Of a stretch of 64,000 bases of DNA, positions 23,272 through 26,577 are shown piece by piece. Location of the stretch: assembly GCF_001861355.1 (NCBI RefSeq), contig NZ_MASN01000029.1, forward strand, positions 62,001 to 126,000, written 5' to 3'. A program made the position numbers and the translations under genes. Within the stretch, counting starts at the first letter, position 1. The number at the start of each line of letters is the position of its first letter. The stretch is from Natrialba sp. SSL1 (GTDB lineage Archaea; Halobacteriota; Halobacteria; Halobacteriales; Natrialbaceae). Below the pieces are notes generated by a model, which saw only the letters and a program-made list of their open reading frames with translations, was not told the DNA's origin and made no database searches.

Positions 23272-26200
23272 TTAGCGGGTGAGCGCCACCGCCGCACCGA
23301 CCAGCACGAGGCCGAGCACCGCGATCACTGCGCCGATCGTTCCCGCGCCGGCTACTGAGAGGGCGACAGTCGCACCCGCGATGATGCCGGCACCGCCACC
23401 GCCGGCGAGCAGCGGACCGAGAAGCGTTTCCAGCGAGCGGCCCGTTCCTTCGTCTTGCTCGTCAGCCTCAGTCGTTTCGTCGGCTACGTTCAACTCCTCA
23501 GCCACGTCGGCCACCTCGTCTACCTCACGTTGCAGTTCCGACCGCAGCGACGCCAACTCGTCCGCCGTTACCAGCGGCTCCAGCTCCTCCTGGGTCACCT
23601 CGCCCTGCTCGTCCTCGAGTTCCCCGACCCGCTCCGCCAACTGTTCGTAGTCGGACTCGAGTACCGTCTGCTCAGCCGAAACGGAGGTCACGCGCTCGTC
23701 GATATCGTCGAGGCGCTGGTCGAGGTTTGCGACCGCTTCGGACTCCGCGAGGTCGTCGAGCCGCTCCGAAAGCGAGTCGACCGTTGCGGCCAGTGACGAG
23801 ACGGTTTCGTTGTCTGGAACGCCTTCGGGATCCGGCACGTCTTCGAGGGCCTCCGAGAGGGACTCGAGTTCGGTGTCGAGCCGGTCTACCTCAGCCGAAA
23901 CACTCGCTGTGTCGTCGGCCAGCGTCTCGATCGCTGCTGCCTGTTCGTCGATGGTTGTCGCGTGCTCGTCGACGGTCGCCGCCTGCTCGTCGATCGTCGC
24001 CTCCTGTGCAGAGAGACGCGTCTCGAGTTCGGCCGTGGTGTCGTCGACGGCAGAGACCGCTGATTCGACGCCCGCGAGCGCATCCTCGAGTTCGTCCACG
24101 TCAGCACTCGCCGTCTCAGCGGTTTCCTCGACATCCGCAGTGTGGCTCTCGACGGCGGCAACGTCGGCAGCGACGGCATCCAGTCGGTCGCCAGCGTCAC
24201 CGATCTGGTCGTCGAGCGCGTCGATGCTGGCACGCAAGTCGTCACTCTCGTTCTCGAGTGTCGCCTCGGTTTCGTCGAGTCGGTCCTCGAAGGTCGTTTC
24301 CGCTTCATCGAGACGGGTCTCGACTGTCGTTTCCGTCTCGTCGAGCTGTTCTTCCAGTCCCGTTTCTGCCTCCTCGAGTCGTGTTTCGAGATCAGACTCT
24401 ACAGAGCCGATCTGCGTTTCGAGCCCCGCTTCCGTTGACTGGAGCTGCGTTTCGAACTCCGATTCCGCTGACTCGATCCGCGAGTCGAGTTCCGACTCCG
24501 TCTCATCGAGACGGCTCTCGAGTGCATCGACGTCCTCGGCCTGCGTCGACACGGCTGCCTCCGTTTCGTCGAGTCGCGTTGTGAGTGTCTCCTCGGTTGC
24601 CTCGAGTGCATCTTCGATCGAGTCGACTGTTTCGGCTATCTCCGCAGCGTGTGTGTCGAGATCAGCTTTCACGTCCGCGACAGCTGACTCGGCAGATCCG
24701 ACGCGCTCGCTGACCGACTCGAGTTCGTCGTCGATCGTCTCGTCGACGGCATCGACGCGGGACTCGAGTGCGTCCAGTTCGGCCGCGGTCGCGGACTCGT
24801 CTGCCAGATCAGCAACAGTGTCCTCGAGAGCAGTAAGTGTCTCGCGGTCGGCCTCGAGTTCGGCCACCGTCTCGTCGAGATCGGATGCGAGGTCCGCGAG
24901 CGTCGTCTGGAGATCCGATATCTCGGCGTCTACCTCGTCGAACCGCGCGGTCGTGTGCGTCGAGTGCTCCTCGAGTCGACCCGCGAGTCCGTCGAGTCGA
25001 GTGGCTTGCGTCTCGAGTTGGGGTTCGAGTTCGTCGACCCGTGCGTCGGTCTCCGCAACAGTGGTAATCGCGTCCGCGCGGTCCGAAACGGTCTGCGAGA
25101 GGTCGGCAAGCCTGGCTTCGGCCTGCTCGAGTTCCTGTGCTACGCTCGCGAGGTCGTCCGTCCGAGCGGTCTCCTCGCGGATTGTGTCGAGGGTGGACTC
25201 GAGTGCGTCGAGGTCGTCGGCGAGCGCTTGAATTTCCTCGTCGCGATTGGCGAGACGGTCGAACAGGTGGTCGATGGCGTCGTTCGCACGGTCGTCTGTG
25301 GCTGGCTGTGTCTGTGCGTCGAGGTCGGCGGCGATGGCTGCGGCACTGTCACCGCCATCGTTGCCACTCGGACTGCTGGCGTCGCCGTTCGCTGGCTCCG
25401 ATGTCGTCGCCGAACCACCGTCGAGATCCCCATCCCCGTCGAACGAGAGCGTATCCGCCTCCTCGCTGCCCGTTCCTGACGCAGACTCGTCCCAGACGAT
25501 CTCCTCGTAGGCATCGACATCATCTTCGGCAGCGGCGAGTGCGCCTCTCGCGGCGCTCGCCTCGGGCTCTGGCGCGCGTCGGACGCCCCGAATCGAGATC
25601 GGGAGCCCCGCCGAATCGAATCGGCCACCGAGGAGGAACTCGAGTCCCTCGACCGCGCCCGAGCCGGCGACTGCGATTGGGACGGCAACGCCGCGCTGAA
25701 GATCGGCGGCCGCGGCCTGCTCGCCGAGGGCGTCGGCCAGTTCGGCGACGAGGTCGTCGTACGCTGCGGCGAGGGCGCGCTCGATCGGTCCGGTTGCGGC
25801 GTCGGGGTCGAGTTCGAACTCTGTGAGCACGCTGCGAACCTGTGCGCGCTCGTGGCCGGTTTCGCCAGCCGCCTGAGCGACGATCCAGTCGGTGCCGCGG
25901 GCGATGGAGAACGCGAGGACCGGCACGCCGTAGTAGGCGAGCGCGACGCTCGTGGTCTGTGCACCGAGGCAGATGCCGACGCCGGTGTAGTTGTCGCCGG
26001 CGAACTGATCGTAGACGACGGCGAAGCCCTGGCTAACTGGTGTAGGTGACTGTGAGTCGCTGTCTTCACTCGTTGCGGTCTCCGTCAACTCGTCGAGCAC
26101 CGAGGCAACCGTCTTGCGATGTGCCCCAGTCGGCGCGTCGGCGTCGACGACTGTCCCAGGCGTCGTGTAGGAGAGTGCCGTCGGCGAGACATCGTCAGGA

Positions 26201-26577
26201 AGAACGAGGTCGACGAGTGCCGAAAGCATCGCCTCGTCGTATTCTGCGGCGTCGAAGACGCCCTGCTGAAACGGGGTGTCGTGCTCGGAGATCGTCACGT
26301 CGCCACCGACTTCCGCTGCGATGGTCGTCGCTTCTGGACCGACGAGCAGCGTCTCGTCGTCAGTCTCGACGAGCGCGACCGCATCGGTGTCGGCCGCAGT
26401 GATCGCGTCCTCGAGTGCATCGTTCGTTGCACTCGCTTCGTCCCCAGTGTCTGTCTCCGTCTCCCCCGCTGTCGACACCGATACAACCCGCGTCGGCGTC
26501 GAACGGAGCGCGACCTCCCCCGAGCGGTCGCTTGCGAGCCGAATTGTGTCTGCCCCAATATCGAGACCGTATGCCAT
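23272..26577 (-). CDS. Actin/Hsp70-fold protein with long coiled coil and C-terminal membrane anchor
   Basis: 1101 aa, encoded in one unbroken frame. Residues 1-350 look like an ASKHA (actin/Hsp70/FtsA) domain: phosphate-1 YGLDIGADTIRLA (3-15), phosphate-2 GICLGAQTTSVALAYYG (201-217) and an adenosine-type loop IAVAGSGAVEGLEFLLG (301-317). A D/E/S-rich linker (about 360-430) follows. Residues about 435-1020 are an almost continuous coiled coil, including eight tandem 11-residue repeats (689-776). The end (about 1050-1100) is glycine-rich and hydrophobic, long enough for two membrane passes, and closes with ALTR. It is thus probably tethered to the membrane with a long rod and an ATP-binding head on the same side. 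A cytoskeletal or envelope-scaffold role is inference; I know no characterised protein with this layout. Confidence 0.75.
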   Translation of the reverse strand: MAYGLDIGADTIRLASDRSGEVALRSTPTRVVSVSTAGETETDTGDEASATNDALEDAITAADTDAVALVETDDETLLVGPEATTIAAEVGGDVTISEHDTPFQQGVFDAAEYDEAMLSALVDLVLPDDVSPTALSYTTPGTVVDADAPTGAHRKTVASVLDELTETATSEDSDSQSPTPVSQGFAVVYDQFAGDNYTGVGICLGAQTTSVALAYYGVPVLAFSIARGTDWIVAQAAGETGHERAQVRSVLTEFELDPDAATGPIERALAAAYDDLVAELADALGEQAAAADLQRGVAVPIAVAGSGAVEGLEFLLGGRFDSAGLPISIRGVRRAPEPEASAARGALAAAEDDVDAYEEIVWDESASGTGSEEADTLSFDGDGDLDGGSATTSEPANGDASSPSGNDGGDSAAAIAADLDAQTQPATDDRANDAIDHLFDRLANRDEEIQALADDLDALESTLDTIREETARTDDLASVAQELEQAEARLADLSQTVSDRADAITTVAETDARVDELEPQLETQATRLDGLAGRLEEHSTHTTARFDEVDAEISDLQTTLADLASDLDETVAELEADRETLTALEDTVADLADESATAAELDALESRVDAVDETIDDELESVSERVGSAESAVADVKADLDTHAAEIAETVDSIEDALEATEETLTTRLDETEAAVSTQAEDVDALESRLDETESELDSRIESAESEFETQLQSTEAGLETQIGSVESDLETRLEEAETGLEEQLDETETTVETRLDEAETTFEDRLDETEATLENESDDLRASIDALDDQIGDAGDRLDAVAADVAAVESHTADVEETAETASADVDELEDALAGVESAVSAVDDTTAELETRLSAQEATIDEQAATVDEHATTIDEQAAAIETLADDTASVSAEVDRLDTELESLSEALEDVPDPEGVPDNETVSSLAATVDSLSERLDDLAESEAVANLDQRLDDIDERVTSVSAEQTVLESDYEQLAERVGELEDEQGEVTQEELEPLVTADELASLRSELQREVDEVADVAEELNVADETTEADEQDEGTGRSLETLLGPLLAGGGGAGIIAGATVALSVAGAGTIGAVIAVLGLVLVGAAVALTR
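24250..24513 (-). repeat. Eight tandem 33-base repeats coding for 11-residue coiled-coil units
   Basis: Within the 1101-aa gene, residues 689-776 read as RLDETESELDS, RIESAESEFET, QLQSTEAGLET, QIGSVESDLET, RLEEAETGLEE, QLDETETTVET, RLDEAETTFED, RLDETEATLEN. There is no gap between units. A hendecad period favours a nearly straight or slightly right-handed coil, in contrast to the heptad parts on either side. Confidence 0.85.

Follow-up and report, generated by a model that had tools for sequence, protein, structure and literature searches.

Known actin-family proteins and the layout of the Natrialba protein

Volactin (VolA, HVO_2015; family PF25216) of Haloferax volcanii assembles into dynamic filaments that span the cytoplasm and touch the membrane with their tips (PMC10869688); the literature reports one volactin in this organism, and volA has been called its only identified actin homolog (PMC7617734). 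Canonical volactins end after about 340 residues, carry neither a rod nor a membrane anchor, keep the Glu and the glycine loop of the nucleotide pocket, and evolve slowly; they are also found in other archaeal classes, where they are always short. Salactin (PF25229), another actin relative from haloarchaea, constitutes a separate family, also without a rod. PF25229 additionally matches the H. volcanii genome, which served as a control, above the cut-off. Membrane attachment of an actin fold is found in FtsA, which uses a C-terminal amphipathic tail, and in MreB, which uses a loop or helix, but neither has a coiled-coil stalk of hundreds of residues between the head and the membrane. Mad28, a second actin that accompanies MamK in deep-branching magnetotactic bacteria and serves here as a working parallel, is described as forming heteropolymers with MamK and as required for proper positioning within the cell; it lacks transmembrane segments, and the coiled coils of that system are separate proteins (PMC12748827).

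The window analyzed in this work is a 64,000-nucleotide stretch of DNA from Natrialba sp. SSL1 (contig NZ_MASN01000029.1). Its minus strand carries an open reading frame at positions 23272-26577 (ATG start, 1101 amino acids) whose product, referred to here as rod-volactin, consists of a predicted actin-fold head, a linker, a coiled coil of approximately 610 residues, and a C-terminal tail that is hydrophobic and rich in glycine. This layout had been proposed in the first-pass annotation and is borne out by the PF25216 match, the periodicity of the rod, and the hydropathy of the tail. The individual features are as follows:

25513..26577, minus strand: head, residues 1-355, predicted volactin-family actin fold (PF25216, AlphaFold, match to MamK; dN/dS 0.14-0.20)
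26560..26562, minus strand: Asp6 of the phosphate-1 motif (GLDIG), present in 62 of the 64 rod heads
26029..26031, minus strand: residue 183, putative site of the hydrolytic Glu, Gln in this protein (residue comparison; hhalign on Escherichia coli MreB E143)
25300..25512, minus strand: residues 356-426, flexible linker of low complexity (low pLDDT; dN/dS 0.29-0.46, higher than in any other part)
25204..25299, minus strand: conserved neck motif TDDRANDAIDHLFDRLANRDEEIQALADDLDA, residues 427-458, start of the rod (recognizable in 59 of the 64 rod proteins of the family; dN/dS 0.04-0.15)
23467..25299, minus strand: predicted coiled-coil rod, residues 427-1037, heptads with a Leu/Val core and an Asp/Glu surface (period 3.5, composition of the a and d positions, register-keeping indels, helix prediction; dN/dS 0.23-0.40)
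24178..24630, minus strand: hendecad (11-residue) section of the rod, about residues 650-800 (period 3.61-3.65; 33-bp TRF arrays at 24253-24345 and 24408-24500)
23812..23841, minus strand: residues 913-922, where the rod is probably interrupted (gap in the helix prediction; proline-rich VPDPEGVPDN)
23275..23436, minus strand: tail, residues 1048-1101, putative glycine-rich hydrophobic membrane anchor (hydropathy; dN/dS 0.06-0.17; helix 1081-1100, low confidence)

All dN/dS values are from comparisons with the three closest relatives, which belong to the same genus and have heads 89-91% identical to that of the window protein. Judging from these comparisons, this is a real gene, because the start MAYGLDIG is common to all four proteins and dN/dS is low; the values, below 0.5 throughout, indicate purifying selection on every part of the protein.

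The head and its nucleotide pocket

The head is homologous to volactin across the full domain: residues 1-350 cover all 321 positions of the PF25216 profile, with E=4.2e-95 and a score of 319 bits (cut-off, 35). The same genome encodes a second, rodless volactin (G000:C29:162744-163706), which is 33% identical to the rod head in a BLAST alignment. Structure prediction for the N-terminal part and comparison with MreB and FtsA, a check suggested in the first-pass annotation, yielded an actin/MreB/MamK-like fold (AlphaFold model of residues 1-362 built from 47 sequences; pLDDT 87.3, pTM 0.88). The closest solved structure is MamK (PDB 5ljv; Z 26.4, rmsd 3.4 over 290 residues), followed by BeeR, MreB, FtsA, actin, and crenactin, all with Z values of 23-25. 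Sequence searches of the PDB gave no useful match with the single protein and only a weak match to the C-terminal part of FtsA with the alignment.

The ASKHA-type head proposed initially is thus retained as a predicted actin/MreB-type fold, but not as an Hsp70-type one, and the family to which it belongs already has a name. The Hsp70 profile PF00012 matches a single gene in the genome, a different one on contig C37, and is absent from the Pfam matches shown for the head. Salactin was likewise rejected as an identity for this protein: PF25229 has no match in its genome (E <= 1e-20) and is not among the Pfam matches of the head (E up to 10).

The nucleotide pocket was compared among 64 rod heads and 32 canonical volactins. 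The adenosine-site Gly305 is present in 64/64 rod heads and in all canonical volactins compared, and the phosphate-1 Asp is missing in just two rod heads. The phosphate-2 site differs: Gly207 is Gly in 32/32 canonical proteins versus 3/64 rod heads, where it is mostly Gln, and the window protein has GICLGAQTTS in place of DxGxGT (the position of the phosphate-2 Asp is occupied by Ser even in canonical volactin). The three ordered pocket motifs described in the first-pass annotation can therefore be recognized in outline, with the second one altered. The largest change is at position 183, which is Glu in all 32 canonical volactins and Lys (25), Arg (20), Thr (13), Gln (4), Ala (1), or Ser (1) in the 64 rod heads; five rod heads from other families likewise lack this Glu. 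Position 179, which is Glu in all canonical proteins but in none of the family's rod heads, was also considered as the catalytic residue and set aside in favor of 183, which falls on E143 of E. coli MreB in an hhalign alignment (a weak match overall), lies at the start of a predicted helix in the AlphaFold head model, and belongs to the canonical volactin motif INEG, which resembles INEP of Hsp70.

Rod heads are predicted to have lost ATP hydrolysis, because the Glu at 183 is replaced and mutation of E143 or D161 in MamK abolishes ATPase activity, resulting in static filaments (PMC5059902). The absence of the hydrolytic Glu of canonical volactin from every rod head makes the ATP-dependent head assumed earlier doubtful. 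It also comes close to the loss of pocket residues across orthologs that had been named as an argument against the original reading, from which the retained phosphate-1 Asp still departs. The window protein may still hydrolyze some ATP, as its Gln183 parallels Gln137 of actin.

These data bear on the possibility that rod-volactin is an active membrane-tethered actin that polymerizes by itself with ATP, similarly to MreB or FtsA on a long stalk. The intact predicted fold, the retention of the phosphate-1 Asp and of Gly305 in most or all heads, and the match of Gln183 to Gln137 of actin would fit such a protein, but the clade-wide replacement of the hydrolytic Glu, mostly by Lys or Arg, the lost phosphate-2 glycine, the two heads devoid of the phosphate-1 Asp, and the fast evolution of the head, unlike that of a self-polymer, make it quite improbable.

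The neck, rod, and tail

The rod begins with the 32-residue neck, its best conserved stretch (DDAIDxLFDRLANRDEEI; 25204-25299), for which no second convincing copy was found among the proteins of the same genome. Beyond the neck, the hydrophobic residues of the window rod recur with a period of 3.47-3.5 residues (power 23.8 versus a 99% level of 8.1 in shuffled sequences), and all 21 of the 21 rods tested have a period of 3.37-3.53 residues, well above shuffles. Core positions are mostly Leu and Val, and the remainder are mostly Asp, Glu, and Ala. Helices are predicted across residues 426-1037 with low confidence; the full-length AlphaFold model (7 sequences) is poor (pTM 0.23) and was used for helix limits only. 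Matches of the rod to SMC, Rad50, apolipoprotein, and other entries of Pfam and NCBIfam, nearly all under the cut-off, were dismissed as coiled-coil similarity. A straight, unbroken coiled coil of 610 residues would have a length of ∼90 nm (by arithmetic, at 0.1485 nm per residue), which is an upper limit for the rod because of the proline-rich break near residues 913-922.

In comparisons of close pairs, which are not independent of each other, 53 indels span at least 5 residues; 28 of them have a length divisible by 7 (∼8 expected by chance), 20 being exactly 7 residues long. Rod lengths of close relatives, in contrast, differ by as much as 158 residues. The alignments thus indicate that the heptad register is kept and the length of the rod is not. 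Tandem DNA repeats of 21 bp and 33 bp within the rod (23927-24006, 24253-24345, and 24408-24500) match the 7- and 11-residue protein repeats. Gain and loss of repeats seem to lengthen and shorten the rods. A spacer of fixed length was considered and rejected; since rod length varies freely, by more than 100 residues, among close relatives, the envelope spacing by a fixed length suggested in the first-pass annotation is unlikely.

The same features can be viewed in terms of an intermediate-filament-like membrane scaffold, in which the coiled coil would assemble along the membrane and the altered head would be only a dimerization or regulatory cap. The rod is the largest part of the protein, its register survives the indels, and coiled-coil-rich proteins are known as prokaryotic shape proteins (PMC10869688). 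Still, we consider such a scaffold unlikely: the rod is less conserved than both the head and the tail, and its variable length is unlike that of a packed filament backbone.

The tail is predicted to be a membrane anchor with one or two transmembrane segments. The C-terminal hydropathy maximum (19-residue mean) is at least 2.22 in 65 of the 65 complete rod-bearing volactins, and values in the rod never exceed 1.41; by hydropathy, the C-terminal hydrophobic segment is the sole predicted membrane segment in all 65, as in a tail-anchored protein. The tail has no convincing counterpart in the other proteins of its own genome.

Phylogenetic distribution and the putative role at the membrane

A search of 391 haloarchaeal genomes, including 101 from Natrialbaceae, with a rod-head profile detected 75 proteins of the rod form, all in Natrialbaceae and in 75 of its 101 genomes (330-524 bits; open frames of 649-1564 amino acids), including members of Natrialba, Natronorubrum, Natrinema, Haloterrigena, Halovivax, Halopiger, and other genera; canonical volactins score no higher than 283.5 bits with this profile, below the rod forms. 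Divergent long volactins with a rod and a tail were found in three genomes of family f7, two of f10, and one of f3, and no rod form was seen in the f4 or f5 genomes searched. In the phylogenetic tree, the rod heads of Natrialbaceae form one clade (SH-aLRT 100), with branches much longer than those of canonical volactins, which form another (99). Rod-volactin also departs from the canonical clade (short proteins with the INEG Glu and a GAG loop) in its length of 1101 amino acids and in the loss of that Glu and of the second glycine. Taken together, the sequence comparisons identify it as a paralogous volactin subfamily distinct from VolA, and hence a new architecture within an already known family; a partial search of the volactin literature, which is no proof of novelty, found no description of a rod-bearing paralog. 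Two or more near-identical canonical volactins are encoded in G142 (contigs C3, C4, and C5), G236, and G287, and G142 has an additional canonical copy split over two frames.

Because the f7 and f10 long forms are not resolved in the tree, the rod form may have had one or more origins. The rod itself was probably added within haloarchaea, because canonical volactin, which extends beyond this class, is short in every such genome seen, and no rod form was found there. In a search for orthologs and synteny, as proposed in the first-pass annotation, the locus was found to be syntenic, with a PEPCK gene in 37 loci and a MOSC gene in 35, pointing to vertical descent. The neighboring genes (MOSC domain, PEPCK, MFS, cupin) include none that is cytoskeletal and offer no functional clue.

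A rodless canonical volactin accompanies the rod form in all 75 rod-bearing genomes, and 25 of the 101 Natrialbaceae genomes encode canonical volactin only, so the rod form is dispensable. The co-occurrence is weak evidence for a joint function, because canonical volactin is present in nearly every member of the family. PF25229 is found in 186 of the 391 haloarchaeal genomes (in families f4, f5, f11, and f12) and in none of the 101 from Natrialbaceae, which raises the idea of a chromosome or cargo tether that has taken over the tasks performed elsewhere by salactin. This appears highly improbable: the pattern follows phylogeny and so reflects one or few events, 26 Natrialbaceae genomes have neither salactin nor the rod form, and salactin (L061) coexists with a divergent long volactin (L060) in one f3 genome (G038). 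The L061 salactin (L061:6035-7300) has an N-terminal extension that is longer than those of other salactins and has the appearance of a small helical domain.

The cytoskeletal tether proposed at the outset is still the best reading, with the amendment that its head is itself a volactin paralog. We tentatively suggest that rod-volactin is a membrane-tethered, hydrolysis-poor volactin paralog that anchors or caps canonical volactin filaments. Its hydrophobic C-terminal tail would insert into the cytoplasmic membrane, and the coiled coil, probably dimeric, would extend into the cytoplasm; the head, altered at the sites of ATP hydrolysis, would join or cap filaments of canonical volactin, which would thereby be held at the membrane. 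Membrane insertion, dimerization, loss of the ATPase activity, and binding to canonical volactin are all inferred here. Volactin filaments do require an anchor at the tip, as their tips contact the membrane in H. volcanii. The main weakness of the tether reading is that tip attachment in Haloferax uses something other than the rod form, given its absence from the f4 and f5 genomes and the single volactin of H. volcanii.

Archaeal actins described to date are rodless filament proteins, and rod-volactin offers a direct, testable candidate for the linker that attaches volactin tips to the membrane. It is possible, if rather doubtful, that canonical archaeal actin filaments are capped or captured at their ends by a catalytically altered actin paralog, carried on a coiled-coil stalk that is anchored in the membrane. 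Actin itself would then have been made into a dedicated linker between actin and the membrane; to our knowledge, no such linker is known in bacteria or eukaryotes. It would represent a duplication of an archaeal actin into a filament former and an accessory protein, in parallel to actin and the actin-related proteins of eukaryotes.
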